From: an uncultured Cyclobacteriaceae bacterium
GTDB taxonomy: Bacteria > Bacteroidota > Bacteroidia > Cytophagales > Cyclobacteriaceae
Assembly: GCA_937958005.1 (NCBI GenBank)
Contig: CALGOB010000040.1
Location: 62,001 to 126,000, forward strand
DNA length: 64,000 bases
Direction of reading: 5' to 3'
The position numbers and the translations under genes are program-made. The notes below the pieces were generated by a model. The model did not search any database and had not been told where the DNA came from. It was given only the letters and a program-made list of their open reading frames with translations. How positions within the stretch are numbered: position 1 is the stretch's first letter; each line of letters opens with the position of its first letter. Below, piece by piece: positions 40,001 through 61,400 of this stretch.

Positions 40001-40405
40001 AAGATCAAACACGCTTCTTTGTCCAGTGGTATTTATAGATTGGGCAGAAAAGCTGTTAATATCAAAGTCACCCCCATTATGACTTATGAAAAAGCGATCA
40101 CTAGAAGTAACGTGTGTATCATTTACCAGATTAATTACACTTATGTGATCAAAGGATGCATTTGCAGGAATTTGAACTTCTAAAATAGTAGTTGAAGCTG
40201 AAATAATATTTGCTTGGGCTCCACCAAAATAGACTCTTAAATTATTGATATTATCGTCAAAACCATTACCGTTTATGGTAACGATTTCATTGAGAGAGCC
40301 AGATTGCTTATCAATACTACTTATGAAAGTATTTTGCGAATATCCTTTCTGCAATAGTATTATGTTTAATATGACTAACGTTGTTAGTAAATATATTCTC
40401 TTCAT
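37085..40405 (-). CDS. T9SS-secreted FG-GAP/Ig/PKD surface protein
   Basis: This 1,106-residue protein has a signal peptide (MKRIYLLTTLVILNIILLQK, cleavage after GYSQ) and an IPT/TIG domain (about 25-110; IDKQSGSLNEIVTINGNGF). Seven FG-GAP calcium-loop repeats (LCDFNNDGTSDI, CGDLNGDGLADL, MQDLDKDGRQDI, SYDLNNDGFDEI, AGDFNNDGMADL, LGDLNGDGRLDI, INDIDGDGRPDI) predict a seven-bladed propeller. Ig-like segments, one PKD domain (VNSWDFRDGNTDTG) and a gliding-type sorting domain (SPNGDGFGFECW to EGAYYYVLKC) follow. ATG 40405 has AAGG 8 nt upstream; a TTG at 40423 would overlap the preceding gene. It follows the PorP-SPOR gene by 10 nt and is probably its exported partner. Confidence 0.9.
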   Translation of the reverse strand: MKRIYLLTTLVILNIILLQKGYSQNTFISSIDKQSGSLNEIVTINGNGFDDNINNLRVYFGGAQANIISASTTILEVQIPANASFDHISVINLVNDTHVTSSDRFFISHNGGDFDINSFSAQSINTTGQRSVFDLCLCDFNNDGTSDIAATSNNSETGQLGIVTIFSNNSTVGSINLSATDISLDETIFTDCGDLNGDGLADLILAEGGAQNIRIYTFENTSAGGIISFNQGQVLQLPIQANGDIKNVDRIMMQDLDKDGRQDIITTNTSNNVLDIFKNIGVSNNIAFTPTPLQIQLADGINTSGLDSYDLNNDGFDEIILTPSRNDNIYILPNSSNVGEIMFDDFIVIPQAGNLTAVKAGDFNNDGMADLISIDGGILGSTGSTDVANIFLNTTTSPGGQIQFTKDSDVLVNVNPGSIDLGDLNGDGRLDIVTTSLSSNPGTGISILINNSTGSNLSFNSFEIPTTTNSRNIRINDIDGDGRPDIAFTHNVGGSSFGDISIFLNQNCVIPEISPVQNQTITICSNNPLELQATQSGGATYRWDLNLNGAGFTTVQESNSSVIDVRSFVNMNETGIFRVSLISDGGACENTSDNSTIIVDGNDAITPILNLPNGNNICPGDELVLSSNIVNDGSIIYEWTAPDGETSDDPEFRRPDFKPSFAGRYELVIITASSCRSPVGSIVVGARNVPFIQIDNGGFNQICAGDSRRLSVPSFDGFSYQWRLNDIDIPGETSTTLDAIDPGLYSLMITDETGCDFETPPTSLTLVTRPVPSFTVDPLTCVGLPVEFNATSTGFGDLAIVNSWDFRDGNTDTGTQPSNTFATAGTFETQLTAEYADLPGCSSPITQTVTVRTPQSFDIITPSGLVKCPSEELVLQLPENFQNYLWSTGDTSFETLAGTEPNESSNLITVSYTDDAGCEASSEVEITNFPNSELVIESNSVIEMDTIRLTEDQVSIDLFITAGTNPIWGPEEVVENNTSNQVTVFPSAAFTTVTLSATTSNDCRETDTIVIVNNSIVPRKTFSPNGDGFGFECWEILNAQILQGCTIYIFDSKGLIVHESSAPFDSNNCIWDGTSNGRTVPEGAYYYVLKCNQSEFNSTGSILLAR

Positions 40406-40415
40406 CCTAAATACC

Positions 40416-42056
40416 TTATTCAACAGTTAATAACCATAATTTAGATAAGCCATTCTTGACTTGAAGGGCTTTCCTACGTTCCTTAGCCATTTTTAAATTC
40501 TTGGATTGAAATATTACAGTGTAATAAAGATCCGTTTCGGTAACATACCCTACAATTACGTCTCTATAACCTTTTTCAAATAATTGATCACTGAAATCTT
40601 CCGCTCTGTCAAAGACTTTGAAGGATCCTGCTACTACATAGTTCCCAGTTTCAAGTTCTAAGATATTGTCTCCTTTTTTTACTTTTTTAGGTACGTTTGA
40701 CCTAGAAAGCTGAGCTATGCTTCGCTGATCATTTGTATGATCAACCACTTCGTTTTCTATATATATAATAGGGGCATTATCATCTAAACCTAGTTCTTGA
40801 TTATTAGGTTGCTTACTGACTTTAGAATTTTCGTTGTTTTGGTTTTTGCTAGGATCTTGGGTTTTAATTTGGGAATCGTTTCTAATATTTTTAATTCTAT
40901 TTTTTAAAGCATCTGCTCGCTCTTGCCTTTTTTCTTCTGGGGTTTTTTCTATTACTTCGTCATTTTTAGGATTGTCATCAGGTGAATTAACTTCTGTTTT
41001 GTTAACTTCCACATCCTTGTTTCCTTCTTTTTCTTCTAGATCATTATTTTGATTTTGCAAGGCAATTTGCTTCTCTTTTTGCAATTTAAGTGCTTCTGCT
41101 TTTGCTTGCCTTTCTTCTGCTGTTAACCTATGACTTTTAATAAAAGAAGATACATGCTCTGCATGTTCTTTTCTTGTACCTAGATGGTAGCCAATATGCA
41201 CTTCAAGAGTAGGGCCTAATAAATCACTGAAATTACTGTTGCCTAAATCGTAAGCAAAGCCGACTCCTATTTTTTCTTTGATCTTTGTACCAAAAAGTGC
41301 AATAAAACCTGCATCTTGTCTAAAAGAAGCTCCTACCCATACAATGTGTTTCAGGTGTGTTATTAAAGCAGCCTCAAACTGATTTCCTAAATTTTTATCT
41401 AATCTATATAATAAGTGTGGCTCAAATGCAAAATCATCAGAGACATGGCCTCTATAATTAATTTTGAGTAATGCTTCATCTAGAGGATCCACTCTTATTT
41501 GAGAGAAACTTTCTGAACCAATTATTTCATAACCAATTAGATTAGGGAGGGCGACACCAAAATTAAAATGCCCAAAATGATAGGTGGCTCCAAATTCTGC
41601 GAGTGTGAAGGTGGCTGATTCTGATAAGGAAGCAAAGGCAGGATCTGCGGGAGAATCAAAACCATCAGTATTGATAGATCTAGTGCCAAAACCTAAAGAT
41701 AGACCAAACCTTAAATAATGCTTTCTGTCCAGAGCAAGTAAATAACTAGCACTTCCTCTTACAGAAGTAGTATTTATAAATTGTTCTTGTTCATTAAAAA
41801 AAGAACCACCAACGGCAATCCCCCCTTTTAGCGGAGTATGGAAACTTAAGTGGGATATAGCTGGAGCGCCATCAATATTACTCCATTGTTTTCTATAAGC
41901 AGCAAAAAAAACAGAGTGCCCCTCAACACCTGCGTATGCCGGATTATACACAAATGGATTGATGAAAAATTGACTCAATACGCGAGATTGTTGTGCTTGA
42001 GATTCCATCCAAGGAAATAGCACCATCGCAACAATTAGATAGACTAATTTTTTCAT
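40416..42056 (-). CDS. PorP/SprF-family barrel fused to a C-terminal SPOR domain
   Basis: This 546-residue protein has a signal peptide (MKKLVYLIVAMVLFPWMESQ, cleavage near QAQ). A PorP/SprF barrel of about 290 residues follows (FFINPFVYNPAYAGVEGHSV, YRKQWSNIDGAPAISHLSF). A charged coiled or disordered linker (about 290-460) contains two copies of a motif like EERQAKAEALK/EKRQERADALK. The last 75 residues (GNYVVAGSFKVFDRAEDFSD to SKLWLLTVE) are a SPOR domain, a fold that binds denuded peptidoglycan. Ordinary SprF proteins of about 310 residues lack it. ATG 42056 was chosen because it gives a clean signal peptide; a GTG at 42077 is in frame. It is followed by the T9SS substrate at 37085-40405. 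Confidence 0.9.
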   Translation of the reverse strand: MKKLVYLIVAMVLFPWMESQAQQSRVLSQFFINPFVYNPAYAGVEGHSVFFAAYRKQWSNIDGAPAISHLSFHTPLKGGIAVGGSFFNEQEQFINTTSVRGSASYLLALDRKHYLRFGLSLGFGTRSINTDGFDSPADPAFASLSESATFTLAEFGATYHFGHFNFGVALPNLIGYEIIGSESFSQIRVDPLDEALLKINYRGHVSDDFAFEPHLLYRLDKNLGNQFEAALITHLKHIVWVGASFRQDAGFIALFGTKIKEKIGVGFAYDLGNSNFSDLLGPTLEVHIGYHLGTRKEHAEHVSSFIKSHRLTAEERQAKAEALKLQKEKQIALQNQNNDLEEKEGNKDVEVNKTEVNSPDDNPKNDEVIEKTPEEKRQERADALKNRIKNIRNDSQIKTQDPSKNQNNENSKVSKQPNNQELGLDDNAPIIYIENEVVDHTNDQRSIAQLSRSNVPKKVKKGDNILELETGNYVVAGSFKVFDRAEDFSDQLFEKGYRDVIVGYVTETDLYYTVIFQSKNLKMAKERRKALQVKNGLSKLWLLTVE

Positions 42057-42095
42057 AACATTCAATACCCTATTCACCTATGTCTCAAATAAACT

Positions 42096-44840: not shown

Positions 44841-47800
44841 GTGATTAAATCTTTATTAAAATTTCTCGGAGGTGAGCCAGGTGAAGAGAAACCAATGTTA
44901 TTACTGTTAGGTAAAGGTTTTTTTATGGGTATTTTTTTGGCTAGCTATCAGATAGGTTCTGAAGAGTTTTTTTTGAAGAGCCTTATTGGAGTTGATGAGC
45001 AGCTGAAAGAGTCCTACATAACATACTCGTTATTTATTACGGGACTTCTAGGTATCATTACTACTTCATTGTTTGTAACCTTACAAAAGAGATTGAAGTT
45101 CTCCACGTTAGCCGTGTCTAATGTTTTTATAATATTAGTAGCGGTCATATCTATCAGGTTTTTTTATGATGATCTAAGTAATATTTATGTATTAGAAAAT
45201 CTTCCTTTGCTCCCTTTTGTCCTTTTTAGTTTAATTGGCCCTATTAGTGCTGTAACTCTACTTGGTTTTTGGGGCGTTTTTGGTAGAATGTTTAACTTAA
45301 AACAATCCAAAAGAATTATAGGAGGTATTGATACAGGGCAGTTAACGGCAACAATTATTGCTTTTTTTTCCATCCCATTACTTTCTAGTGAGCAATTTAA
45401 GATAATAGGAAAATCATATGATTTAATCACACTGTCTGCCATAGCAGCGGTAGGAATGATGATATTTGTGGTGCTGATTATAAGAAACTATAACTTAGAT
45501 AAATCTACCTATATAAATAATAAATTTACTAAGGTTAAAAGCTCTGAAAGTAAGCAATCTGTTTCCTACTTGCAGATCTTTACAAATCCATATATGAGGC
45601 TCATGTCACTTTTCATTGTTTTTTCGATGGGTGCAAGTGTTTTTGTAGAATTTACATTTATAAGTTCCACCACTATTATGATGGAAGAAAATGAAGGTGC
45701 TCTTAGAAATTTTTTAGGATATTTCAATGGGACTATTATGATTTTTAGTTTTATTATTCAGAGTTTCGTGAATGATAGAATCATTAATGACTACGGCTTA
45801 CGCGTTGCATTGATGGTGATGCCGCTAGTACTCATTTTATTCATTGTAGCAGCTGTAATATCAGGGCATATTTATGGTTATGAAATAAAAACTGAGAATT
45901 ACATTTATTTCTTTTTGTTTACATCTGTTGGGAAGTTGCTGACAGCCTCTTTGAAAGACGCACTTGAAAACCCTGCATTTAAAATGTTTTTCCTTCCATT
46001 GGATGTGAAAATTAGGTTTGATGTACAAACAAGGGTAGAAGGTGTAATTAGTGAGGCAGCAACGCTTATTGCAGGTGCCATGCAGATTGGTATGGCTGCC
46101 TTGGTGTTTTTTAAATTGATACATTTCAGCTATTTTATCCTTCTGCTAGCAGTTGTTGTAATTTATTTAGCACACAGGTTATTTTTACAATATAAAATTA
46201 CTTTGAAGAATACACTGGAAATCCAGAAAATTAACTACAAAGACCAAAGTATTAGAACAGAGACCAATGTTATTAATGCATTAAAAGCTGAAACATTAAG
46301 TAATAATCCTACAGAGGTTATTAATGCCTTGAAAATACTGGAAAAGGTTGATCCAATTCAACTAGAACCTACCCTCATTACAACTCTACAATCTGAGAAA
46401 AAAAGAGTTAGGCTTTATTCGTATAAAAGATTGAACGACCTTTTATGTTTTGATCAGTTAGAACCTTTAATAGAGGAAGTTAAATTTGAAGATGATCCTA
46501 AACTATTAGAACTTTCATCTAAAGTCATTGAAAACTTGAAGAAGGCGGAAAACCATGAGTTGAAGTTTTCTTCTATAAAAAAGTTAAGTCGTTCCATAGA
46601 CGCTACGGATCGAGTATTAGGGGCTAGATTGCTTGCAAAATTAACTCAAGAGAGGTTTGTTCCTCTTTTGATGGATCTTATTAAAGATATCAATCCCCAA
46701 GTTAGGACTGCGGCTATGATTTCTGCAGGGAAGCTTAAAAGACCTGAGTTTTGGCCTGTTTTTATTGAAAACCTTCATTTGGCTACATATGGAAATATTG
46801 CTATGGCAGCTTTAGTAGAGGCAGGAGAATCTGTCCTTCCATTAGTTGACACAGCCTTTTACAAGACTAACCAACACCACCTAACTATGCTTAGGGTCAT
46901 TCAAATTACTGGTAGAATAGGAGGTTATAGGGCTACCGAATTATTATGGAAAAAAATAGATTACCCCAATAAGCAATTAGTATCAGAAATTTTACAAACC
47001 CTTAGTTACCTAGGATTTAAAGCTAAGGATTTTCAAGCTGCAAGGATCAAATTATTTATAGATACGATTATTAGGAATCAAACTTGGAACCTAAAAGCAC
47101 TTGAAGAATTGCCAAGAACAAGTAAAAATGATAGGCTGCTTAGAAATGCCCTACTAGAGGAGAATAAGCAAAATTATAACGACATATTCATGTTGTTGTC
47201 TATGATTTATGATCCTCAAAGTATAGAATTGATTAAAGATAATATCGATTTAGATACAAGTGATAGTATTACTTTTGCTATTGAAATGCTCGATGTTTTT
47301 ATAGAAGACGAACTAAAGCCAACTTTATTTGCGGTACTTGAAGACGCTAAAGTAGAAGATAAACTAGCGAAATTACACCTACATTATGCACCAGAGAGTT
47401 TTGAGAATAATGAAGATCTATTGTTACAGATATTAAATAGGGACTATAATTTTATCAATAGATGGACAAAGGTTTTAGCTGTCAATAGGTTAGGATATTT
47501 AGATAATGAAGAGGTTTCTATGAGCCTTATAGCTAATATATTCAATCCTGATATGTTCATTTTAGAAACAGTCTTTGCTTCTATTCATAAGAAAAATGAA
47601 GAACAATACTTTTACCATAGTAAAAGAATTAAACCTAATTTAAAAGCTGAAATTGATAGATCGATCATTCCACCTGTTTATAAAAATGAAGATGATTTTT
47701 ATCATCAACGTAGACTGATGGTAGACAAAGCAATATTTTTGAAGGAAACCCCTTATTTTGAAAAATTGAATGGCATTGTTTTGATGGCTATTGCTGAAAA

Positions 47801-48155
47801 TTCTGATGAGGTTGTACTTGATAAGGATATTGCCATAATAGAAAAAGGGGATAACGGAAATACCCCAATTTATATTATTTTGGATGGAGAGATTGAAGTG
47901 ACAGATGAGGAAGGAAAAGTAAAAAAATTGAGGAGTGGAGATATTTTAGGAGAAAAAATTATTCTTGAATCTAGTGAATATGATTTTGAAGCTGTGGTTA
48001 CAAAGAAGAGCATTGTGCTAATGATCCGAAAAGAGGAGTTTTTTGACGCATTAACTATATATAAAGATCTAATATTTACTCAATTAAATATAATGACTGG
48101 TAAACAGCAAACTGGAAAAGGAGAAGAAGAAATTGACTTCTCCATATTTGGTTAA
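44841..48155 (+). CDS. Nucleotide-transporter-like membrane protein with HEAT repeats and cNMP-binding domain
   Basis: This 1,104-residue protein has three parts. Residues 1-440 are about 12 transmembrane helices resembling the Npt/TLC ATP:ADP antiporter superfamily or a wider MFS relative (KPMLLLLGKGFFMGIFLASY, SVGKLLTASLKDALENPAFK). Residues about 465-930 are helical HEAT-type repeats (RVLGARLLAKLTQERFVPLL, INPQVRTAAMISAGKLKRPE). Residues about 980-1085 are a cyclic-nucleotide-binding fold (ILDGEIEV, then LRSGDILGEK). The Arg usually found in the phosphate-binding cassette after GE is missing (ESSEYDFEAVV), so the ligand may differ or be absent. The GTG start is preceded by a G7 run. First gene of a five-gene operon, 3-18 nt before the next. 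Confidence 0.85.
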   Translation: MIKSLLKFLGGEPGEEKPMLLLLGKGFFMGIFLASYQIGSEEFFLKSLIGVDEQLKESYITYSLFITGLLGIITTSLFVTLQKRLKFSTLAVSNVFIILVAVISIRFFYDDLSNIYVLENLPLLPFVLFSLIGPISAVTLLGFWGVFGRMFNLKQSKRIIGGIDTGQLTATIIAFFSIPLLSSEQFKIIGKSYDLITLSAIAAVGMMIFVVLIIRNYNLDKSTYINNKFTKVKSSESKQSVSYLQIFTNPYMRLMSLFIVFSMGASVFVEFTFISSTTIMMEENEGALRNFLGYFNGTIMIFSFIIQSFVNDRIINDYGLRVALMVMPLVLILFIVAAVISGHIYGYEIKTENYIYFFLFTSVGKLLTASLKDALENPAFKMFFLPLDVKIRFDVQTRVEGVISEAATLIAGAMQIGMAALVFFKLIHFSYFILLLAVVVIYLAHRLFLQYKITLKNTLEIQKINYKDQSIRTETNVINALKAETLSNNPTEVINALKILEKVDPIQLEPTLITTLQSEKKRVRLYSYKRLNDLLCFDQLEPLIEEVKFEDDPKLLELSSKVIENLKKAENHELKFSSIKKLSRSIDATDRVLGARLLAKLTQERFVPLLMDLIKDINPQVRTAAMISAGKLKRPEFWPVFIENLHLATYGNIAMAALVEAGESVLPLVDTAFYKTNQHHLTMLRVIQITGRIGGYRATELLWKKIDYPNKQLVSEILQTLSYLGFKAKDFQAARIKLFIDTIIRNQTWNLKALEELPRTSKNDRLLRNALLEENKQNYNDIFMLLSMIYDPQSIELIKDNIDLDTSDSITFAIEMLDVFIEDELKPTLFAVLEDAKVEDKLAKLHLHYAPESFENNEDLLLQILNRDYNFINRWTKVLAVNRLGYLDNEEVSMSLIANIFNPDMFILETVFASIHKKNEEQYFYHSKRIKPNLKAEIDRSIIPPVYKNEDDFYHQRRLMVDKAIFLKETPYFEKLNGIVLMAIAENSDEVVLDKDIAIIEKGDNGNTPIYIILDGEIEVTDEEGKVKKLRSGDILGEKIILESSEYDFEAVVTKKSIVLMIRKEEFFDALTIYKDLIFTQLNIMTGKQQTGKGEEEIDFSIFG

Positions 48156-48173
48156 TTATTGAAATATGAAGGA

Positions 48174-49676
48174 ATGAGATTTGAATTTGATATAATACTT
48201 AGTTACGCTACTGAAGATGATCAGCCTCTATCAGGTACTGATAAAGGGTGGATTTCAAATTTCAAGAAATTTTTGATTACTCTTTTTTCTCAAATATCAA
48301 AAGACAAGCCTAAAATCTTAGAAGTTACAGAGCTTGACGAAATTGAGTCTATTGAGAATAAATCTATGGTTTATATTGCTATTCTTTCAGAATCTTTTTT
48401 TCGACACCAAGAATTAACTGAACTTTTAGATGTTTATGCTAAAAATGCAGTGAAACAGGGTAACCTTGAGCTATCAGGTATTGGAAGACTTTTTAAAGTT
48501 GTAAAACAACCGATCAATATTGATAATTATTTACCAGATTATGAAGATCTAATCCCTTACGATTTTTATCAAGTAGATCCACGTACGGGTGAGGCTACAG
48601 AATATGAACGTTTTTTTGGAGATCAAGCAGAACGAGCATTTTGGATGAAACTTGTTGATATGGCATATGATATATCTGAATATGGCCAGTCATTCAAAGA
48701 GCACGATGAAGAGCAGAGGAAAAAGGAAGTTGATAAAGAAAAAACCGTTTACCTTGCTAGTACCGGAGTGGATATGATTATCAAGCGTGATATCATAAAA
48801 CGGGAATTAATACGGCATGGTTATAAGGTATTACCTGATCATTCTCTACCTAAAGAAATGGGTGCATTGTCTCATAATGTAGAGGAAGATCTTAATAGAT
48901 GCCGTTTATCCATTCACTTAGTAGGGGAGGATTATGGTTATAAATGTAAAGGGTCAGACTTGTCTGTAGTAGAGATTCAAAATAAGATTGCATCTGAATA
49001 CAGTCAAAAGATGGCAAAAAGAACTGTTGATGAGAAATCAAATGATCCATTTAGTAGATTAATATGGCTTTCGCCAAATTTGAAAAATGTGACCGAAAGA
49101 CAGCGGTTGTTTATAGAAGGTTTGAAAACAGATGCTGCTATGTTAGATGAAGCTGAAGTTTTAAAAATAACTTTGCAAGAGTTTAAATCTATCATTAGAT
49201 CAGAATTGGTAACGGGGGGTAGATTTAATAACCAAAGAGAAATCAAAGGGTTTTCACCTGATCCAGAAAACTTGAATAATCCATTGATCTACTTGATTTG
49301 TGATAAACCAAACATAGATTCTGTAAGCCCAATTAAAAAATGTTTAGAAAAGAAAGGGTATAGGGTTGTTTTGCCAACCTATGAGGGTGATTTGGTGGAT
49401 TTGAGATACATTCATCAAGAAAATTTAAGGAGATGTGATGCCTCGTTGATATATTGTGGAAATTCATCTGAAGATTGGGTAAATGCAAAATTACAAGACT
49501 TATTAAAAGCACCAGGTTTTGGTAGGCAAAAACCTATTTTGGCTAAAGCTTTATATACCAATAGTCAAAACGAAATATACCAGCGAAAAGCTGCTCAGAA
49601 TAGAGCAATTATTTTAGAGGGGGGAGTAATTTTTGAGGAAAAAGAACTAGACCCTTTTCTAAGTAAATTGAAGTAA
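48174..49676 (+). CDS. TIR / DUF4062 / TIR-like three-domain protein
   Basis: This 500-residue soluble protein has no signal peptide. Domain 1 (about 1-165) begins RFEFDIILSYATEDDQPLSG and has a TIR-like layout, with SESFFRHQELTELLDVY where TIR NADases carry their catalytic Glu. Domain 2 (about 190-280; KTVYLASTGVDMIIKRDIIK, then EEDLNRCRLSIHLVGEDYG) matches DUF4062, itself TIR-related. Domain 3 (about 368-480; LIYLICDKPNIDSVSPIKKC, RRCDASLIYCGNSSEDW) is another flavodoxin/TIR-like fold. The ATG at 48174 is used; a TTG at 48159 is in frame. The stop is 1 nt before the nSTAND gene, implying joint action. NADase activity is possible, not shown. Confidence 0.8.
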   Translation: MRFEFDIILSYATEDDQPLSGTDKGWISNFKKFLITLFSQISKDKPKILEVTELDEIESIENKSMVYIAILSESFFRHQELTELLDVYAKNAVKQGNLELSGIGRLFKVVKQPINIDNYLPDYEDLIPYDFYQVDPRTGEATEYERFFGDQAERAFWMKLVDMAYDISEYGQSFKEHDEEQRKKEVDKEKTVYLASTGVDMIIKRDIIKRELIRHGYKVLPDHSLPKEMGALSHNVEEDLNRCRLSIHLVGEDYGYKCKGSDLSVVEIQNKIASEYSQKMAKRTVDEKSNDPFSRLIWLSPNLKNVTERQRLFIEGLKTDAAMLDEAEVLKITLQEFKSIIRSELVTGGRFNNQREIKGFSPDPENLNNPLIYLICDKPNIDSVSPIKKCLEKKGYRVVLPTYEGDLVDLRYIHQENLRRCDASLIYCGNSSEDWVNAKLQDLLKAPGFGRQKPILAKALYTNSQNEIYQRKAAQNRAIILEGGVIFEEKELDPFLSKLK

Positions 49677-49677
49677 A

Positions 49678-52600
49678 ATGGCTGAAGAAGAAGTTAAAAT
49701 TCAAGAAACACACCAGTTTGAAATTGCGGATTTAGTGAATCCATTTCCTGGTCTTAGACCATTTGGGATCGAAGAGAGTCATTTGTTCTTTGGAAGAGAG
49801 GGTCAGAGTGACGAAGTGTTGGTTAAGCTTGCTGAAAACAAGTTTGTATCTATTTTAGGTGCTTCTGGTAGTGGTAAGTCCTCTTTAATGTACTGTGGTT
49901 TAATTCCTACCCTATATGGTGGGTTCATGACTTCAGCGGGTTCTAATTGGAGAGTGGTTGTTACAAGACCGGGAGGTGGCCCAATCGAGAATTTAGCAGA
50001 GGCTTTATTACAAAAGAATAAAGAATATCAGCAACTTGGTACTGAAGATAAACTGATCAAAAAAACCATTACAGGAACTGTATTGAGAAGTAGCTCCTTG
50101 GGTTTAATAGAAGCTGTAAAACAATTAAAGTCATCCGATAATGAAAATTTCCTGATCCTAGTAGATCAATTTGAAGAATTATTTAGATATAAAAAAATAG
50201 AAGCAGTCAATTCTGAATCTGATGAATCATCTGCTTTTGTAAACCTCTTACTGGAGGCTATCCATCAATATAAAGAACCTATTTATATCGCTTTGACTAT
50301 GCGATCAGATTTTATAGGGGAATGTGCTCAATTTCCAAATTTGACACAGATGATTAATGACTCGCATTATTTGATTCCTCAAATGACACGTGATCAAAAA
50401 AGGTTAGCCATAGAGGGACCAGTTGCTGTAGGTGGTGGCATAATTACTGGTAGGCTCTCACAGCAACTTTTAAATGATGTAGGTGATAACCCAGATCATT
50501 TACCAGTATTGCAGCATGCATTAATGCGTACTTGGCAGTATTGGGTAGATAATAGAAAAAGTGACGAACCATTAGATTTAGATCATTATAATGCGATTGG
50601 GACGTTAAAAGAAGCACTCTCACAACATGCAAATGAGGCTTATGATTCCCTGTCTAAAAGGGAGAAGCAGATTTGTGAGGTGATGTTTAAGTCTCTTACA
50701 GAGAGAGGTTCTGAAAACCAGGGTATCAGAAGGCCAACAAAATTACATACCATTGCAAAGATAGCAGGGGTAACAGAAGATGAAGTTATTCATGTAATTG
50801 ATAAATTCAGGGAGCCAGGTCGTTCTTTGTTAATGCCTCCCTATGGAGTTGCATTGAATTCAGATTCTGTTGTAGATATCTCACATGAGAGTTTAATGCG
50901 TATATGGACTCGCCTCAAGCAATGGCTTGATGAAGAGTCTAAATCTGCAGAAATGTACCTAAAACTCTCAGAGTCAGCAGAAAGATATCAAGAAGGTAAA
51001 TCAGGTTTATGGCAGATGCCTGATTTACAACTTGCACTGAATTGGGAAGAAGAAAATAGACCGACTTTAGTATGGGGACAAAGATATAACCAAGCATATG
51101 AGCGGACACTCGTATTTCTGGAGACTAGTAAGAAAGCTTATGCGACAGAACAACGAAATAAAGATATACTTCAGAAAAGACAGATTAAGCGATCAAAAAT
51201 AGTTGCGGGTGTCCTTTCTGTTTTGGCTTTATTCTTACTGACTTTCGTAATATATGCTTTTCAACAGAAAGCAGATGCTGAGAGACAGGAACAAGCAGCA
51301 ATTAGTGCCTTGGAAAGAGCTGATGAACAGACTAGAATAGCAGGTGAACAAGCAGCTAGGGCGATAGATGCAGAAGCAAATGCAAAAACTGCCTTAAAAC
51401 AGGCTGAAAGAGCATATGGCGAGGCAGCAAAAGCAGCGGTTGCTGCACAGACAGCAAAGGAATTAGCTGAACGTCAATCTGTACTAGCAAAACAAAATGC
51501 AGCAAGGGCAAAAGAGCAAGAAGAAAAAGCAACAAAAGCAGCCAAAGATTCCAAATTAGCTCAAATAGATGCGAAGAATGCTGCTGATAGAGCGGAAGCA
51601 GAAAGAAGAAGTGCAGAAAACTTAAGATATCAAGCAATTGCACTTTCAATGGCGATTAAAGCTAAAGGAATAAAGGATGTGGAATTAAAAGGACTGGTGG
51701 CAAGACAAGCTTATACTTATTGGAAAGAGTTTAAATCGTTGAACCAAGTCTTTAGTGGAGATATTTATAGTGGGATATATTATGGGTTGAAAGGCTTTAA
51801 AGGAGATTCTCTTAATCATTTAGAAGGGCATGAAAATGCGGTTAGGTCCGTTGTTTTTGATAAAAATGGTACCAAGCTATTTTCAGCAGGAAGTGATGGG
51901 AAGATTTTGAAATGGGATATGGTCGATAATTACTCAGAGGTCGTTTTCCAGAATGATAACGTGAGTCGAGTTGTAGGAATTAGTGCTGATGAGAAATACC
52001 TTGCTTTAGGTTCTGATGACGATGATATATTTTTATTCTTGCTGAACAGACAGAGTCAAGAACCTGTAAGAATTGCGGGGCATGGGGGAGCTGTTTATGA
52101 CTTAAAATTCCTTCCTGATAACTCTGGGTTTATTTCTACTGGAGCTGATAACGCTTTAAGATTCAGTGATTTTGTTAATTCTAGGGAGATTGCTAGTGTG
52201 AAAAATAGAATAAAAACTCTTGCCATAGATCCAAACGGAAAGTACTTGGCAGGGGGTACCGATAATGGAGAAGTATTCTTATATGATTTGAAAAATATGG
52301 GTGAAGAGCCCATACTTTTGATTGAGGATGTAGTTAACCCAGTAAATGCGATTACTTTCAATGCCAAGGGTGATAAAATAGCATTTGGGAAGTATAATGG
52401 AAATGTTATTTTGTGGGATGTAATTAACAATGAACAATTTGGACCAATACTTACCGGTTTTGATGGCCCTGTAACTGATATAAGTTTTGATAAAGAAGAT
52501 CGCTTTTTAGGAGCTAGCAGCACTGATAAAACTGCCAGAATTTGGTCTTTAGACAGAATTTTTGATTTACCAATCATTTTGGATGATCACACAGAATGGG

Positions 52601-52797
52601 TTTTTACTTTAGACTTTCACCCAGATGGGGGTTATTTAGTTACTGGGTCAAAAGATGGTATCATCAGGAAATGGCCATTACAACCAGATGAAATGGCTGA
52701 GGAACTTTGTACTTTACTGACAAGAAACATGACTTCCACAGAATGGATTCAATATGTTGGCGAAGACATTGAAAGGGAAGAAACTTGTAATAACTAA
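49678..52797 (+). CDS. nSTAND ATPase with transmembrane helix, coiled coil and WD40 propeller
   Basis: This 1,039-residue signal-transduction NTPase begins its core with NPFPGLRPFGIEESHLFFGR (21-40), a hallmark of the nSTAND1/Hat-like class. It continues with Walker A GASGSGKSS (61-69), Walker B FLILVDQFEELF (about 157-168), a region with LPVLQHALMRTW, and the winged-helix end DISHESLMRIWTRLKQWLDE. A single transmembrane helix lies at about 510-530 (VLSVLALFLLTFVIYAF), then an Ala-rich coiled coil (about 535-650). Seven WD40 blades (about 715-1005; e.g. HENAVRSVVFDKNGTKLFSA) complete it. With the ATPase in the cytoplasm the propeller would be periplasmic. Third gene of the operon. Confidence 0.9.
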   Translation: MAEEEVKIQETHQFEIADLVNPFPGLRPFGIEESHLFFGREGQSDEVLVKLAENKFVSILGASGSGKSSLMYCGLIPTLYGGFMTSAGSNWRVVVTRPGGGPIENLAEALLQKNKEYQQLGTEDKLIKKTITGTVLRSSSLGLIEAVKQLKSSDNENFLILVDQFEELFRYKKIEAVNSESDESSAFVNLLLEAIHQYKEPIYIALTMRSDFIGECAQFPNLTQMINDSHYLIPQMTRDQKRLAIEGPVAVGGGIITGRLSQQLLNDVGDNPDHLPVLQHALMRTWQYWVDNRKSDEPLDLDHYNAIGTLKEALSQHANEAYDSLSKREKQICEVMFKSLTERGSENQGIRRPTKLHTIAKIAGVTEDEVIHVIDKFREPGRSLLMPPYGVALNSDSVVDISHESLMRIWTRLKQWLDEESKSAEMYLKLSESAERYQEGKSGLWQMPDLQLALNWEEENRPTLVWGQRYNQAYERTLVFLETSKKAYATEQRNKDILQKRQIKRSKIVAGVLSVLALFLLTFVIYAFQQKADAERQEQAAISALERADEQTRIAGEQAARAIDAEANAKTALKQAERAYGEAAKAAVAAQTAKELAERQSVLAKQNAARAKEQEEKATKAAKDSKLAQIDAKNAADRAEAERRSAENLRYQAIALSMAIKAKGIKDVELKGLVARQAYTYWKEFKSLNQVFSGDIYSGIYYGLKGFKGDSLNHLEGHENAVRSVVFDKNGTKLFSAGSDGKILKWDMVDNYSEVVFQNDNVSRVVGISADEKYLALGSDDDDIFLFLLNRQSQEPVRIAGHGGAVYDLKFLPDNSGFISTGADNALRFSDFVNSREIASVKNRIKTLAIDPNGKYLAGGTDNGEVFLYDLKNMGEEPILLIEDVVNPVNAITFNAKGDKIAFGKYNGNVILWDVINNEQFGPILTGFDGPVTDISFDKEDRFLGASSTDKTARIWSLDRIFDLPIILDDHTEWVFTLDFHPDGGYLVTGSKDGIIRKWPLQPDEMAEELCTLLTRNMTSTEWIQYVGEDIEREETCNN

Positions 52798-52817
52798 TAT
52801 TTGCATTTTGAATACAT

Positions 52818-53897
52818 ATGAAAGTGATCAATAGATATACTTTAATAATTTTTTTTGCTCTCATTTCTTTCAATCACATAGCAATAGCGCAATGTACGAA
52901 AGCTTTGAAAGATGCTGAAAATGAGTATGAAAAAGGAAGGTTACTAGATATTCCTAATAACCTCGAGTACTGCTTAAACAGTAATTCATTTTCTAAAGAG
53001 GAAACAATAAGAGCTTATAAGTTATTAACCTTGGTTTTTATTTTTTCTGATCAAGAAAAAAAGGCTGAAGAAGCATTGATTAAATTATTAAAAGCAGATC
53101 CAGAGCATGAATTGCAAGAACAGTTTGATCCTGCAGAAATTTTTTACTTATATGACAAGTTTAATGTTGATCCCATCTTTAGAATAGGCGGGAGAATTGG
53201 ATTAAATAGTTCAAGAGTTAATGTAATAGATGAATTTAATGTTTTTAGTACAAACCAGGTCACAAGATCATATGCTAATAGATTAGGCTTTACAGGCGAG
53301 TTGTCAATAGAAAAATACTTAAAAAAAGGGATTGAAATCAATGCAGGATTTCAGGCATCTATTTCAAGTTTCAATGTCGTCGATATAGCCACAGATTTTA
53401 ATGCTTTTGGTGAAAGAACAGTTATTTTTAGTACAGATATTTCCGAAAGTCAACTTAGTTTAAAACTACCTGTTTTTGTAAGATATAATTTGAATTATGA
53501 ATCAAAAGAAGGGATTACTCCTTTCGTTTTAGCAGGTACAGCATTTAACTACTTATTAGATGCTAGGTTAATTGACTCTCAAAGACAGGGAGGTACATCA
53601 AGAACAGCAAATAATGTCTCACTTCTAGTTAATAATGAAAGAAAGCAATATAATGTTTCGGCTTTTTTAGGGGCAGGTGTAAAATTTAGAAGTAAAAGAG
53701 TTCATTTTTTTTCTATCGAAGCGCGGTATGAGATTAGCTTCTTAAATTATGTTAATCCCGAAAATAGATTTTCTTCAAGTTTAAGCACATTTGGTTTAAC
53801 TTATGTGCCAGATAACCTAAGCTTGAATCATTTATCTATTTTATTCGGATATACAAGATCTATTTATAATCCTAAAAAGAAAAAGGAATACTTATAG
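52818..53897 (+). CDS. Outer-membrane barrel protein with helical N-terminal region
   Basis: This 359-residue protein has a signal peptide (MKVINRYTLIIFFALISFNH, cleavage after IAIAQ). Residues about 25-100 are a TPR-like helical region (CTKALKDAENEYEKGRLLDI, SKEETIRAYKLLTLVFIFSD). An outer-membrane barrel (about 115-350) has strands such as IFRIGGRIGLNSSRV, GIEINAGFQASISSF, LSLKLPVFVRYNL and LSILFGYTRSIYN. The combination of helical head and barrel recurs in Bacteroidota surface systems, though no specific family was recognised. It is 20 nt after the nSTAND gene and 1 nt before the lipoprotein gene, so it probably belongs to the same envelope complex. Confidence 0.75.
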   Translation: MKVINRYTLIIFFALISFNHIAIAQCTKALKDAENEYEKGRLLDIPNNLEYCLNSNSFSKEETIRAYKLLTLVFIFSDQEKKAEEALIKLLKADPEHELQEQFDPAEIFYLYDKFNVDPIFRIGGRIGLNSSRVNVIDEFNVFSTNQVTRSYANRLGFTGELSIEKYLKKGIEINAGFQASISSFNVVDIATDFNAFGERTVIFSTDISESQLSLKLPVFVRYNLNYESKEGITPFVLAGTAFNYLLDARLIDSQRQGGTSRTANNVSLLVNNERKQYNVSAFLGAGVKFRSKRVHFFSIEARYEISFLNYVNPENRFSSSLSTFGLTYVPDNLSLNHLSILFGYTRSIYNPKKKKEYL

Positions 53898-53898
53898 C

Positions 53899-55215
53899 AT
53901 GAAATTTAATTACACACATATTCTTTTAAATTTAGGAGTGGTTCTTTTATTGAGTTCTTGCTTTATAAGAGACAAATCTAGTCCAGAACCGGAAGACATA
54001 TTTTTAAAAGTTTTTGGAGGAATAGGTACAGAAACTACAAGTGATTTAGGCATTTCAGCAGATTCAGATTTATATTATATTTTAGGAACTTCTACTAGTA
54101 ACCCTATTAACTTGGTGCCTGGCTTAAGTGATCTATACTTAATACAAACTGATGTAGGTGGAAATAAATTAAAAGAGATTTATTTAAATATTAGTAATAA
54201 TGATGATACTGAAGAGATAGCCTCTTCGATGAAAGTATTAGAGGATGAGATTATTGTAATTGGTCAAACTAGAACCATTAATTCATTAGGTGTATTTGAC
54301 AATAGGAATATCTTTTACAGTTTTACAGATTTAAATTTAAATATTACAAGAACGGATTCAATAGGTGTATTTAGTGCATTCGGAATTGTTGATGAAGATA
54401 TTGTAGGGAATGATATTATAAGAACATCAGATGGTAATTATGTGGTTTTAGCAACAATAGGTGACCCAGGTAACCAAAATAGAGATATTGCTTTTATGAA
54501 GATTACTAATGATGGAAATATACTATGGACTAGAAGAATAGATTTGCCAGATGATGACGCAGGTGTTTCCGTTATTGAATTTCCTAATGGAAATTTAGGA
54601 ATTTGTGGAGAAACAAGTAGAAGGTCGGTCAATGGAAGAGGAGGCCAGAATGTATTATATATAGTTACCAGTGAAATAGGTCTCTTAAAAAATTCTTTAG
54701 CTTTTGGCAGCATAGTCGCAGATAATGATCTAATAAATGATATACCCACAAAAATGATCAATGATGGGAATGGCGCGATTATCATAGGTAATTCAGATGT
54801 TACTGCACAGATTACTAGCAGATTTTCCTTTTCAGTATCTCAAAACGGAAGAGTTGGCGATTTACCTGAACTTTTAAATATTAATGAAGAACTAGAATCC
54901 GGATTTACTTCTGTTATTTTTAATGATGTAGCAAGAGCAACTAATGGTGAATTGATATTTACTGGTAGGGGAGTGTCGGCAAATGATGGTACTAATACAG
55001 GACTTCAAGATCAAGTCTTGGTTGGTAGAGCAAATCAAGCAAGTCAAATTCTATTTCTATTAAATAATTTTGGTGATGATAATAGTGAATCAGGAGAAGG
55101 AATTATACAGCTGCCAGATGGAGATGTATTAATCGCAGCGACCATTGGATTTGGTAATAACAATAACAAAATTGGATTATTTAAGCTCAATGGAGATGGT
55201 CAATTAATGAAATAA
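53899..55215 (+). CDS. Predicted lipoprotein with beta-propeller-like repeats
   Basis: This 438-residue protein starts MKFNYTHILLNLGVVLLLSS followed by the acylated Cys (lipobox LLSSC). The acidic/charged run after the Cys (FIRDKSSPEPED) could favour surface export in Bacteroidota. The body has repeats of the kind FGGIGTETTSDLGISADSDL, DIIRTSDGNYVVLATIGDPG and GEGIIQLPDGDVLIAATIGF, which resemble the blades of secreted SBBP/Kelch-like propellers. No enzyme residues are visible. It is the last gene of the operon and lies 236 bp before the second giant secreted protein. Confidence 0.75.
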   Translation: MKFNYTHILLNLGVVLLLSSCFIRDKSSPEPEDIFLKVFGGIGTETTSDLGISADSDLYYILGTSTSNPINLVPGLSDLYLIQTDVGGNKLKEIYLNISNNDDTEEIASSMKVLEDEIIVIGQTRTINSLGVFDNRNIFYSFTDLNLNITRTDSIGVFSAFGIVDEDIVGNDIIRTSDGNYVVLATIGDPGNQNRDIAFMKITNDGNILWTRRIDLPDDDAGVSVIEFPNGNLGICGETSRRSVNGRGGQNVLYIVTSEIGLLKNSLAFGSIVADNDLINDIPTKMINDGNGAIIIGNSDVTAQITSRFSFSVSQNGRVGDLPELLNINEELESGFTSVIFNDVARATNGELIFTGRGVSANDGTNTGLQDQVLVGRANQASQILFLLNNFGDDNSESGEGIIQLPDGDVLIAATIGFGNNNNKIGLFKLNGDGQLMK

Positions 55216-55451
55216 AAGTATATTTATATGATATTTTTTCTTGAAATAGTGAAAAAAATATCGGAAATTTATAGGATAACAACTTAGAAACGAAAATGTG
55301 TAGGAGATCAAAAGTTGATAAATTCGATTTTTTAAAATTACCCCCAATTAGTTATGATTGTGGGCACACAAAAATACATGCCTTTTTAGGCACCCCAGCC
55401 AAAACAGTTTACTCTTTTTATTATTCAAGAATTTTACAGAAAGAAACACCC
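55216..55451. other. Intergenic region between the lipoprotein and the second giant protein
   Basis: This 236-bp AT-rich spacer has only a short hairpin, TGCCTTTTTAGGCA at 55379-55392, with a 5-bp stem. It is too weak to call a terminator. There is no clear TAnnTTTG promoter. Whether the giant gene belongs to the preceding operon cannot be decided from the sequence. Confidence 0.45.
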
Positions 55452-58400
55452 ATGATTAGATTTTTATTTACTCTTTTCCAGCTTGGCCTTGTTGGTAAAC
55501 GGAGTAAGGCATTGCTCTTTTTAGTTTTAGGATTGTCATTTTCATTGACATTGAATGCTCAGATAATTGACTTTGAAACTGAACCAAGTTGGGTAGATGG
55601 TTCAACACATGAAAATGGAGCTGTCTATACAAATGGAAATATTAGACTTACTGACAATGGATCTAGTTGGTTAGAAGATATAAATACAGCCAACGGAACT
55701 AATGTGATCATTAGCCAAGCATCTGCAGATGGATCTACAATTACTGTAGAGACAATAGACGGAACTGAACTTGATTTTCAAAGTTTTACTACAAGAGATT
55801 TTGGGGGTGGAGATATAGTCCAAATAGAAGGCTTTAGAGATGCGCTATCTACAGGAGTTCAGACCATGAGTGTTTCCTCTGGTGGTGCAGAATCATTGAT
55901 TTTCTTAGACAATTCAATTTTTAATAACGTAGATCAGATGGTGATTACTTCTGGAGTAGGGGGATTCCAGCAGAGTTTTGATAACCTTACCTTTGGTCCG
56001 GTACCAACCCCTCCAACTGTAAACTCTAATGCCGCTACAAATGTAGAAGAGATTACAACCACTTTAAATGGTGAAGTAGTCAATGATGGTGGGAGCACTA
56101 TCACTGAAAGAGGGTTTCTCTATGCTTTAACTGCTGATGATGCTGACCCTATGATTGGTGATACTGACGTAATTCAACAAACTGTTGCTGGAACTACTGG
56201 TGTTTTTAGTTTAAATGCCACAGGCCTTGCTGCTGCCAGTGGCTATTCATTCCGCGCCTACGCTATAAACAGTGAAGGAACCACCTTAGGAACTGTTCTT
56301 ACGTTTACAACTATAGCAATCACCAATCCTACAATTGATACCAATTTAGGCATTAGTCTAAATGAAGGGTTAACAGCTAATATTACTATTACACAACTCT
56401 CAAGTTCAGATGCTGCACAAGGGGCAAGTGAGTTATCCTATACTGTTCAAGCTTCCTCCATTGTTAATAATGGTACTTTATTTATAGATGGTGATAGTGA
56501 TGGTAGTTTTGATGGAGGGGCTTTAGATACTGATATTTCTAGTGCAAACAGTACATTTACAGAACAGAACATAATAGATGGTGATATTTATTATGAACAC
56601 GATGGAACCGAAACTATTTCAGACGGTTTTGATTTTGTTGTAAGTGATGGAACAGGTGGAACTACTGGAAGTACTTCTTTTGTAATTACAATTACACTCC
56701 AAAATGATGTGCCAGTAATTGCTGATTTAAATGGTGATGCCTCGGTTTACGATGAAGGTGATGGCCAAGTGATTGTCGATCAAGGTACATTGGCGACACT
56801 AAGTGATGATGATCTGCCAACCGATTTTGATGGAGGAAATTTAACAGTAACAGTTTCATCTGGAGGCAATGCTGCGGAAGATTTATTGTCTTTGTCCACA
56901 GCTGGGAATGTTACCTTAGATGGCACTAATGCGACTGATGTAGTACGTGTTTCTGCTGTTTCTGTTGGTACGTTAATGAATACAATTACTGAAGGGAATG
57001 ATTTGATTATCAACTTTAATGCAGGTGCTACCTTGGCACGTGTTGAAGAATTGATTCAAGCTATAACCTATGAGAATACTAACTTAGGAAACCCAACTAC
57101 CGGTGCCCATACCTTTAGGATTACGGTAGATGATGGTGATGGAAGTGGACAATCAGCTGATAATGAAGTGATTTTTACAGTTCAAGGGATTAATGATAAT
57201 CCAGTTGCTTCAGTCAATGCTGGTTCTTCCTTAAATCAGGGGGCAACAGATATTGTACTACAAACGGAATTAGAATTTACAGATGCAGAACAAGCAGCTG
57301 CTAATGTTACTTATACGTTAGATAACACAACTTCTAATGGGACACTGAGAAATAATGTGACTACCTTAATAGCAGGCAGTACATTTACACAAGCAGATAT
57401 TAATGCTGGAGATATAAACTATGAACATGATGGTGTGGGAAGTACTACTGATAGCTTTCAGTTTGATGTGACTGATGGAGTTGGCGGAGCAGTTAACAAT
57501 GTAGTATTTAATTTCACCATTAGTGATGTAACGGCAGCAAGTATTTCTGAAGCACAATATTTAGATATTGATAGTGATGGTCAGATTGATCGTGTAGATG
57601 TAACTTTTAGTGAGTCAATAGCTGGGTCTACTTTTGATGCAAGTGATTGGAATTTTGCAACCAATCCCGATGGATTAACAGTAATGAGTGGTGTGATTGT
57701 AGGAACTGATGTTCAAATTACAGTAGGAGGTACAGTGGCAAACACAACGGTTATAGATCCTACTACTACTGTGCAGTATACCAATAATGCGAATAGAATT
57801 ACGGACGGAACAAACCCTTCTGTTACCAGTGGCGAAATTGTTTTGGATGATGGTGCAGTACCCTTGTTTTTAAATGCGATTCAATTGGATACAGATGGAA
57901 ATGGTGATATTGATGAAATAGTGGTAGAACTAACTGAACCTTTTAATAATACGACTTTAGATCAAGGTGACTTTAATTTGCCTGTTGGATCTACTGTTGA
58001 TGGAATTTTTGATAATGATGTAGTTAATACTGGAAATACAATTGATAATGATAATGATCGATTCTTTACTTTAGAAGTATCTGTACTAGGTACTGGGGCT
58101 GTTATTTTAGCTCATATCTCTGATGGTGATTTGCTCATATTAGAAGATGCTAGTGGAAATGCGGCAGCAGACAATGCCGGAATTAATTCAACCGACCAAG
58201 CAGATCCAATTATTATTGCTACTTCTGCGTTAGATGCCAGTAATTCTTTTCTGGATATTACTTTTTCTGAAGGTATATTTAGTAGTGCTGGTGGCCCAGT
58301 ACTAACAACAGATTTTGATCCAGGGTTTGTTGTAAATACAGGAACAGCTTTGGGGCTTGATATTATCTTTTTAAATACTTTAGCAGGAGCTGACCTTGTA

Positions 58401-61400
58401 GGAGGTGAGTCACAGATTAGGTTTGGCCTGGGGCAACAAGGCAGTTCAAATGGTAATGAAACTATTCAAATAAGCCCTAATGCGAGTGCCATTGAAGATG
58501 CTGCAGATAACCCGCTGGATGCTGGGCAAATGACTCAAATGAGAACACTAAATGCACTTAATATCCTAACAATAGTTGATGTAAGTATAGATGCTAATAA
58601 TGCCTTTGTAGACGTTACATTTTCTGAATCTGTAGAAAGAAACCGAGATGCGCCTAATGACAATGACCCAGTAGGTTATGCAAATAACCTTGAATTTTTT
58701 GCTATGGATTTTAATGATCCTGATGCGATAGGAGCTGTTACTTTTAATCCAAATGTCATTACTATTACTAATCAAGCTGGCGGTACATTGACAAATGCTG
58801 ATAATATCTTAAGATTTAATTTCAATGCTGCCTTTACAGGTGTGCCAAGTGGGAATGAGACATTTAATATCTCCAATAGATTGACTGATAGGGTAAGAGG
58901 CTCTGTAACCAATGTTTTATTACCAGCCGGGACTGATATACCCATTACTCTAAATGATGAAAGAACAATGATACTTTCTGCAAGGTATCTTGATACAGAT
59001 GGAAATGGCAACATTGATAAGGTAGTAATAGAAGCCGACCAAAATATTGAAGACGCAAGAATAAATTCTAATATTCCTAATTTTACCTTTGAAGGGTCAA
59101 GCCCTTTAGCTCAAACAAATAACGCAGTAGTTGCTGCTTTTGTAGACTTTCCAGATCCAGGAGTGGCCAATGATGAATTTATTACTTTTGATGTAAATAT
59201 TACAGGTACTGAGACTAACCTAATAGCGTCTTATACACCTGGTGACTTAAGAAATACTTCATTAGGGCTGGTTGCAGCAAATGCGGATATTACTAGAATA
59301 GATTTAGCTTCTCCGGTAATTGAAAGTGCTGTGGCTTTAAGTAATACTATGATTCGTTTACAGTATGGTGAAGATATCCAGGCACCCATTTTGTTTAATG
59401 ATGGATTCTCTATTAGTGGAGCTACAGTGACCAATGTTGCTTTGAATGGTAGTGACCCGTCCATAGTGGAAATTACAGTAAGTGGATTGGGGGCTACAGA
59501 TTATACTGGAACATTATCAATTGTGATAGATGGAAATGATTTATTGGAAGATGCAGCAGGAAATGATATTGCTGATTTGGTTGGGTTTGCAGTTGGTGAT
59601 GGACAGTTGCCTACAGTTCTCAATGTTGTTTCAATAGATGCAAATGCGGATGGAAATGTAGATGGATTAGAAATTGAATTCAGTGAACCCATAGATGATA
59701 GCGATATTTCTGGTGGAGATTTAAGTGATTGGTCAGTATCAACAGATAATTTTGCGATTGAAATTGATGCGATCAATGCTTTTACTACCTCAGTAGGGGG
59801 GACTAATGTAGTAGATGATGAATTTGTCACTTTAAGCTTTACACCCAATTTAACTAGTGGAACTGGTGTATTTGAATTTAGGTACCAGAATGATGGGCCT
59901 AATGATATTACTGATTTATCAGCGGCTAGTGTAAACGTATTGCAGGACATTAATATTACCCCAGCTACAGATGGTGCAAATCCTGTATTTACTTTTGTGA
60001 ATCCCATCGATGGAGCTACAAATGTTACAGTTGCTTCTGTTTTAAATGTTTTAACTTTTGAATTAAGTGAACCGGCGACAGCTAATGCTGGAACCTTTAT
60101 CAATTTATTTGCAAACGCAGCTCCATTAGAAAGTATAGAATTAAATAGTTCTGCTATAGATGTTACTGGGACTACTGTAAATGTTTCATTATCCAATCTT
60201 TTACAAGAAGGGATTTCTTATAACGTAAGCATTGATGAGAATGCATTTTCTGATGCTTTATTGAATAATTCAGCAATTGATGCTAGATGGAATTGGGATA
60301 TGGAACCAGTTGGTCAACCTAATATTGTCGCTGGCTTCCCGACTGGTGCAGATGTACCACTTAATTCTTTAGTCCAAATAATTTTTGATGAATCTGTAAG
60401 GTATGCCAATTTTGATGAAAGTACTGGTAACCCCAATTTTGATGCTACAGTTACTATTTCTGTAGTTTCAGGTATAGATGGTAATTTCCCGAGGACATTC
60501 AGTACACTAAGTGGGAACAATGGATTAGAGGATCCAGTGTTTTTTCCTCGTTCAAATACAGAATTGACGAATGGGGCAGGTAGTGAGGACGTAGATAATA
60601 CTACTACAATCAATGATACCATTACAATTGATTTAAGTCAATCTATCATGCCGGTTTCTTTTGCTTCTAATGTTACTTATGAGGTGACTATTGGTGAAGC
60701 AGCTTTTGAATTTGCAGGTAGTTCTACAGATACTCAGCCATTTAGTTTTCAGTTTTCAACTGTAAATGATGGAACACCTCCAACATTAGTTGGAAATGGA
60801 ATTGTATCTTTTGAACCGGATGACCAAGCAGATGGTGATTTTACTGGTAATGTAGACCCAGCTACAACTAACTTTTTAGATGTCTTTTTTAATGAAGATA
60901 TAGAAGCTGGTACAGGAAATATTCAGTTGTTCCTTGATAGTGACAATGATTTAACAGCTGATGCAATAGTATTTGATATCCCTTCAAATGATCCTTCAGT
61001 CTCATATGATTTAACCAATGATAGATTAAGGATAGATCTGACAGTGACAGGGTTGGATATCTCTTTAACTGGTAATGTGACTTATTATATAAATATTGAG
61101 AACGGTGCAGTACAGGATTTATCAGGGAACTCTTTTGCTGGATTCAATGATGCAACTACTTGGAATTTTTCAACTCAGATTGAAACTATTGCCCAAGGTA
61201 ACGAACCCGTTTTAGAATCATTGAACCCAGCTGATAATGCTAATAATGTGGCAGTTACTTCAAGTTTTGTTTTGGAATTTGACGAACCAATAACAGTAGG
61301 TACTACTGAAGAGGTTCGATTTCTATTATTTAACAATGATGCATTAATTGAGACAATACAAGCTTCTGCACTGAGTGTAAATAATAATTTAGTGACCATA

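Follow-up and report, generated by a model that had tools for sequence, protein, structure and literature searches.

The analysed window, a stretch of 64,000 nucleotides on contig CALGOB010000040.1 of an uncultured Cyclobacteriaceae bacterium, contains an operon of six plus-strand genes (g1 to g6), the last of which extends past the window end. Plus-strand coordinates of the genes and their main features are as follows:

44841..48155, plus strand: g1, NTT-family membrane part (residues ~1-465), HEAT repeats and C-terminal cNMP-binding-fold domain (residues 993-1071)
48174..49676 (ATG; possible TTG start at 48159), plus strand: g2, pseudo-TIR (residues 1-175), DUF4062/DNPH1-like (189-350) and TIR/receiver-like (368-500) domains
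49678..52797, plus strand: g3, nSTAND1 ATPase, one transmembrane helix, alanine-heptad rod, WD40 propeller and C-terminal Cys pair
51196..51267, plus strand: transmembrane helix of g3 (residues ~507-530), basic residues on its N side
51277..51621, plus strand: alanine-heptad rod of g3 (residues 534-648)
51775..52788, plus strand: WD40 propeller of g3 with the conserved Cys pair C1011/C1037; the apparently swapped outer half begins here
52818..53897, plus strand: g4, signal peptide, TPR-like domain (C26 and C52 conserved) and 8-stranded OmpA-like barrel
53899..55215, plus strand: g5, lipoprotein with propeller-like repeats and acidic residues after the lipobox Cys
55296..64000 (ORF; likely start ATG 55452), plus strand, continuing beyond the window: g6, giant secreted protein with Big_5/Cadherin_3/Ig_7 repeats and a Por_Secre_tail T9SS domain

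The intergenic gaps from g1 to g5 are 3 (TTG start of g2) or 18 (ATG start), 1, 20 and 1 nt. The initial annotation of this DNA had described five plus-strand genes with exactly these positions and spacing, and the domains it assigned to all five proteins were confirmed by Pfam and profile matches and by an invariant lipobox Cys. Its five-gene boundary has to be moved, as a sixth gene encoding a giant T9SS cargo closes the operon. The Bacteroidota promoter pattern was not found within the window.

A PorP_SprF protein is encoded beside the operon (40416-42077), and a PorP/SprF neighbour is also present in many relatives. The upstream genes encoding PorP/SprF, a small outer-membrane protein, a histone-deacetylase-like protein and a rhomboid protein are common to the closest relatives. 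On the minus strand, the regions 10203-36860 and 37085-42077 contain an 8885-aa ORF, a 1112-aa FG-GAP/PKD protein with a CHU_C T9SS signal and the PorP/SprF protein; these genes appear to form a second, divergent T9SS adhesin locus adjoining the operon.

Predicted components of the operon

The g1 protein matches HEAT_2 (1e-8) and cNMP_binding (2e-10) in Pfam, and its N-terminal membrane part is assigned to the NTT family by a family profile that matches solved ADP/ATP carriers (9j3n, E 5e-20; 9j3j, E 1e-14). Charged residues essential in ATP/ADP transporters are K155, E245, E385 and K527 of AtNTT1 (PMC4256464). In g1, E245 is replaced by Gly/Leu/Val and K527 by Thr/Ser/Gly, E385 is mostly retained as Asp/Glu, and the K155 region, which is unaligned to AtNTT1, has no Lys in the window. 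In 125 orthologues, the columns where the Arg of the cNMP phosphate-binding cassette would be expected do not have Arg as one of their commonest residues. With these key charges and the phosphate-binding Arg lost, a nucleotide-responsive transporter effector, as initially suggested for g1, is not supported, and the losses may leave room for transport of a different substrate. NTT-HEAT-cNBD fusions are a known bacterial architecture, described without function (PMC5381601). The g1 protein shares this three-part architecture and differs by the loss of the key charges and the cNMP Arg and by its fixed place in a STAND operon, which the passages considered from that source do not mention.

The g2 protein matches DUF4062 (3e-5), with TIR_2 below threshold. 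No TIR_2 match at the Pfam cut-off was obtained in the entire genome, and the TIR domain of g2 is evident from predicted structure only. An AlphaFold model (pLDDT 82) contains three domains of TIR/DNPH1/receiver type with a VIA Z of about 12.5 per domain; residues 1-175 adopt a TIR fold (VIA Z 12.8 to the SNC1 TIR, 2.6 A over 130 residues). Searches of PDB sequences with the g2 and g4 profiles found no relative. At the column of the TIR catalytic Glu (WCxxE), the window protein has Leu, and Glu was found in 11 of 80 g2 sequences, five of which are of a short stand-alone type. TIR-based signalling, the role initially proposed for g2, is not supported, given this lack of conservation in the operon proteins and the absence of g2 from paralogous g1-g3-g4-g5 operons. 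Short stand-alone g2-g3 pairs without g1, g4 and g5 were identified at six loci (L062, L063, L064, L070, L104 and L110). Most of these pairs retain the catalytic Glu, which lies in a SEWCxxE context in L062, L063, L064 and L070, and no WD40 match was found in L062 and L063. These pairs resemble ordinary TIR-STAND conflict pairs and are possible relatives of the operon's ancestor.

The g3 protein matches nSTAND1 (PF20703, 4e-98) and WD40 in Pfam. Its Walker A and B motifs are intact (GxSGSGKSS and DQFEE conserved, nearly all motif columns invariant), and the STAND domain is the most conserved part (67% vs 25-32% outside). Given these intact motifs and the losses of the TIR Glu, the transporter charges and the cNMP Arg, the STAND ATPase is, judging by sequence, the only clearly active enzyme.

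The rod region following the membrane helix of g3 has low identity (25%), and one of its heptad positions is Ala in 87%. Among 141 orthologues, the length from K500 to R650 is only 130, 144, 151, 158 or 165 residues, values that are all equal modulo 7. This length changed at least 25 times on a tree built from the STAND part, although some of these changes may reflect recombination instead of indels. In contrast, the length of the WD40 region, which served as a control, varies freely and follows no modulo-7 rule. At 0.15 nm per residue, the rod helix is calculated to measure ~17-18 nm, a plausible length for a periplasm, which it may span. The Cys residues of the pair C1011/C1037 are kept in 132 and 133 of the 141 orthologues. 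Together with the conserved Cys residues of the g4 TPR-like domain, it would suit an oxidising compartment, and topology, Cys pair and rod suggest that the WD40 part of g3 is periplasmic.

For g4, the only Pfam match is OMP_b-brl_2, with none to PF11751 (PorP_SprF). Its AlphaFold model (pLDDT 93, pTM 0.80) consists of a TPR-like domain and an OmpA-like barrel (barrel VIA Z 15.6 to OmpA). The WD40 part of g3 and the g4 TPR-like domain covary (0.63 with the barrel controlled, 151 pairs), but adjacency on the DNA alone gives the same pattern, and a contact between the two domains is not claimed from this confounded signal. The lipobox Cys of g5 is invariant, and two or more acidic residues are present at positions +2 to +6 in 14 of 16 sequences, which may represent a signal for export to the surface.

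Directly 3' of g5 on the same strand, the contig encodes g6, a protein of 5221 aa with a Por_Secre_tail match (PF18962, E 6e-12); this Pfam domain was confirmed in three g6 proteins. A YPNP-type T9SS tail closes every complete g6 that was read, comprising seven plus further ones including that of the window, and an N-terminal signal peptide was recognised by eye only. Most g6 N-termini are linked via repeat domains and 11 stand alone, and no common docking domain is claimed for them. The genome also encodes the SprA translocon and about 60 other T9SS CTD cargoes. Among 131 distinct informative loci, in most of which only the first part of g6 was read, g6 is present in 113 of the 125 with g5 and in none of the six without it (p 3e-6). 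As g6 follows g5 in 113 loci and the genome contains about 60 other cargoes, chance adjacency is not credible. About 10% of the g5-bearing loci lack g6, which is either dispensable or located elsewhere in these cases.

Conservation of the operon and exchange of its outer half

Gene neighbourhoods were compared at about 110 loci and an additional 80 named loci located with g3, the genomes of which partly overlap. In most of these about 190 loci, which represent many Cytophagales families, the gene order g1-g2-g3-g4-g5 is kept with short gaps and 22-69% identity, and the operon usually occupies one chromosomal locus. Among the named organisms with the operon are Ekhidna, Reichenbachiella, Marinoscillum, Imperialibacter, Fulvivirga, Chryseolinea and Dawidia. 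Of 148 genomes of the family, 83 carry a g2 relative; such relatives extend to many further families of the order but are rare in the remainder of the class. Both g2 and a full-length g4 are encoded in 75 of the 148 family genomes, g2 only in 8, g4 only in 5 and neither in 60 (Fisher p 2e-26, an indicative value given that the genomes are related). Conservation across genera and families and the co-occurrence of g2 and g4 rule out a chance gene order. As envisaged in the initial annotation, the gene families stay together across Cytophagales; their members are not scattered, and barrel and lipoprotein genes do co-occur with the nSTAND gene. In the genome of the window, searches with g2 and full-length g4 identified a single such operon, compared with about 60 other CTD cargoes.

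Variants of this arrangement include paralogous operons missing either g2 alone or g1 together with g2, and in some genomes g1 is unlinked from the operon. The g2-less operons of Fulvivirga are second operons in genomes that also carry a g1-g2 pair. At L258, L265, L266 and L270, g3, g4, g5 and a giant-protein gene form a paralogous operon that has neither g1 nor g2; in several genomes this operon lies behind thrS-infC-rplT-like genes. L042, L049, L186 and L193 contain a second, mostly shorter g2-like gene immediately upstream of g1. In L068, a frame break splits g1 and also g3, with g2 and g4 intact, which could represent decay or an assembly error.

In close pairs of loci, the cytoplasmic parts are 95-100% identical, whereas the outer parts (WD40, barrel, lipoprotein and giant protein) share as little as 25-66% identity. 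In L211/L220, for example, g1 (96%), g2 (97%) and STAND (99%) contrast with WD40 (48%), barrel (25%) and g5 (27%), and in L083/L084 WD40 (66%), barrel (46%) and g5 (36%) diverge despite near-identical cytoplasmic parts. The outer parts of other pairs stay alike, with 93% (WD40), 93% (g4) and 92% (g5) identity in L199/L205 and 99% in L033/L213. In sliding windows, identity falls just beyond the membrane helix for L211/L220, and for L043/L100 it falls between the g4 TPR-like and barrel domains. The pair G100/G028, made up of a named isolate of Imperialibacter and a genome on a single contig, shares 91-99% identity in the flanking genes on both sides and only 46, 32 and 33% in g4, g5 and g6, with identity recovering in the sorting tail of g6. 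Several of the swap loci are metagenome-assembled; as far as the records tell, G100/G028 is free of that doubt. Furthermore, the cytoplasmic part of L215 is closest to that of L227, and its outer half is closest to that of L036 (WD40 89%, g5 72%). Discordant relatedness of cytoplasmic and outer parts was detected in 9 of 54 loci, compared with 0 of 54 in a control of g1 against g2/STAND. The discordant loci, the L215 mosaic and the sharp, flanked identity drops indicate allele replacement beyond fast drift, and the outer half (WD40, g4, g5 and most of g6) is, on these sequence comparisons, replaced as one unit between relatives.

Proposed function and alternatives

We propose, with a probability of about 0.5, that the six genes encode a trans-envelope machine linked to the T9SS, in which a module conferring specificity can be exchanged and which would either sense via or control a giant surface protein. 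In this machine, g6 would be exported, as suggested by its T9SS type A tail, and displayed on the cell surface, where the lipoprotein g5, putatively surface-exposed, and the small g4 barrel would hold or read it. Within the periplasm, the g4 TPR-like domain would meet the WD40 propeller of g3, carried by the quantised heptad rod found in the sequence, which would cross the periplasm from the single inner-membrane helix. In the cytoplasm, the nSTAND1 ATPase of g3 could switch or assemble in an ATP cycle, with g2 as its putative, catalytically dead TIR-family scaffold and g1 working with g3, potentially as the output. The exchangeable outer specificity module (WD40, g4, g5 and most of g6) would be mounted on a constant cytoplasmic half, and the direction could be either outside-in (contact or kin sensing) or inside-out (adhesin control). 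The trans-envelope sensor suggested in the initial annotation is thereby retained as a device, comprising the membrane helix, rod and WD40 propeller of g3, the TPR-like domain and barrel of g4, the g5 lipoprotein and the linked genes, but without TIR signalling or a transporter effector.

We tentatively consider a more specific reading, in which the machine is a receptor for self/non-self or partner recognition. Here, an NLR-like STAND ATPase would read a polymorphic outer cassette via the periplasm-spanning rod of quantised length, and the cassette of WD40, barrel, lipoprotein and giant T9SS protein would pass between lineages as one allele block.

It is doubtful that g3-g5 only export, anchor or mature g6 in the manner of PorP/SprF partners, without any signalling. 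The common loss and common exchange of g5 and g6 and the PorP/SprF gene adjoining the operon in the window and in many relatives are compatible with such an accessory role, as is the fact that PorE, a T9SS component, has propeller and TPR domains in the periplasm (PMC5053529). However, the STAND switch, the pseudo-TIR protein and the NTT protein would be superfluous, the STAND domain is the most conserved part, and the genome contains one such operon for about 60 other CTD cargoes. Uptake or exchange of nucleotides, in which barrel and lipoprotein would bind nucleotides or nucleic acids, g1 would transport them and g3 would regulate the process, is highly improbable. The profile matches of g1 to solved ADP/ATP carriers and its NTT-HEAT-cNBD fusion, an architecture known from bacteria (PMC5381601), would fit this role, but the E245 and K527 equivalents and the cNBD Arg are lost, g1 is unlinked in some genomes and the barrel is small and OmpA-like.

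Anti-phage or anti-predator immunity, with surface proteins detecting an attack and STAND/TIR proteins triggering cell death or NAD depletion, is unlikely. Conflict systems typically contain TIR, DUF4062, STAND and WD40 modules (PMC7159879, PMC8195603), the TIR Glu persists in the short relatives at L062, L063, L064 and L070, and the outer parts diversify. Contrastingly, the operon's own g2 proteins have lost this Glu, and the operon is tied to a T9SS cargo and sits at one conserved place in the chromosome, flanked by conserved genes. PADLOC finds no system, just partial cNMP, HEAT and WD40-type matches. A mobile defence island was rejected on account of the conserved locus, the absence of phage matches and the few plasmid matches (5/6 non-mobilizable). 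The initial annotation had held a non-defence role to be equally open; defence is now disfavoured, and a recognition role, even one directed at phages or predators, is still conceivable.

Relation to known systems

SprB/RemA-type adhesins are giant T9SS repeat proteins encoded alongside an outer-membrane barrel gene (PorP/SprF partner). The operon shares the giant T9SS protein and the barrel, but g4 combines TPR and OmpA-like domains instead of PorP_SprF, the tail is of type A and STAND and NTT genes are included. The Lap system of Pseudomonas governs a giant surface adhesin from the inner membrane, with LapD/LapG acting by c-di-GMP and proteolysis. The trans-envelope control of a giant adhesin proposed here would be alike, although the two systems have no homologous parts. 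STAND ATPases are established cytoplasmic switches that govern immunity and cell death. Like nSTAND1 conflict systems and NLR-like receptors (PMC8195603, PMC7159879), the operon combines an nSTAND1 ATPase and WD40 sensor with a TIR/DUF4062-type partner; it differs in the degeneration of the TIR partner, the membrane-anchored STAND protein with a rod of fixed length, and a barrel, lipoprotein and T9SS cargo as usual neighbours. TPR and propeller domains are shared with the T9SS protein PorE/PG1058, in which they are periplasmic near the outer membrane (PMC5053529). PorE is a single lipoprotein with an OmpA-like peptidoglycan domain, whereas the operon encodes TPR and propeller domains in two different proteins, with the propeller joined to a cytoplasmic ATPase. 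A search of the open-access literature found no paper on both T9SS and nSTAND.

If the proposed trans-envelope machine exists, it would link a STAND ATPase through the two membranes with a giant protein on the cell surface, and immune-type enzymes would have become scaffolds. Such a mode of signalling across the envelope, or of controlling an adhesin, would be new and would occur in a large environmental order. The machine would also hint at what the uncharacterised NTT-HEAT-cNBD fusions do, at least those of this branch, and provide a natural allele-swap system for probing recognition specificity. Furthermore, the rod implies a distance rule, according to which cutting or adding heptads should break the machine.

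Relatives of g1 and g3 were also identified beside or within extracellular contractile injection system clusters at L257 (4292-18001) and on plasmid pPP2 of Persicobacter psychrovividus (L293, 4152-24058), which contain sheath, Pvc16_N/DUF4255, GH18, baseplate and tape measure genes. The STAND-NTT pair may also control injection machines, and the presence of g1 and g3 alone within an injection-system cluster suggests that the pair is not tied to adhesins only.
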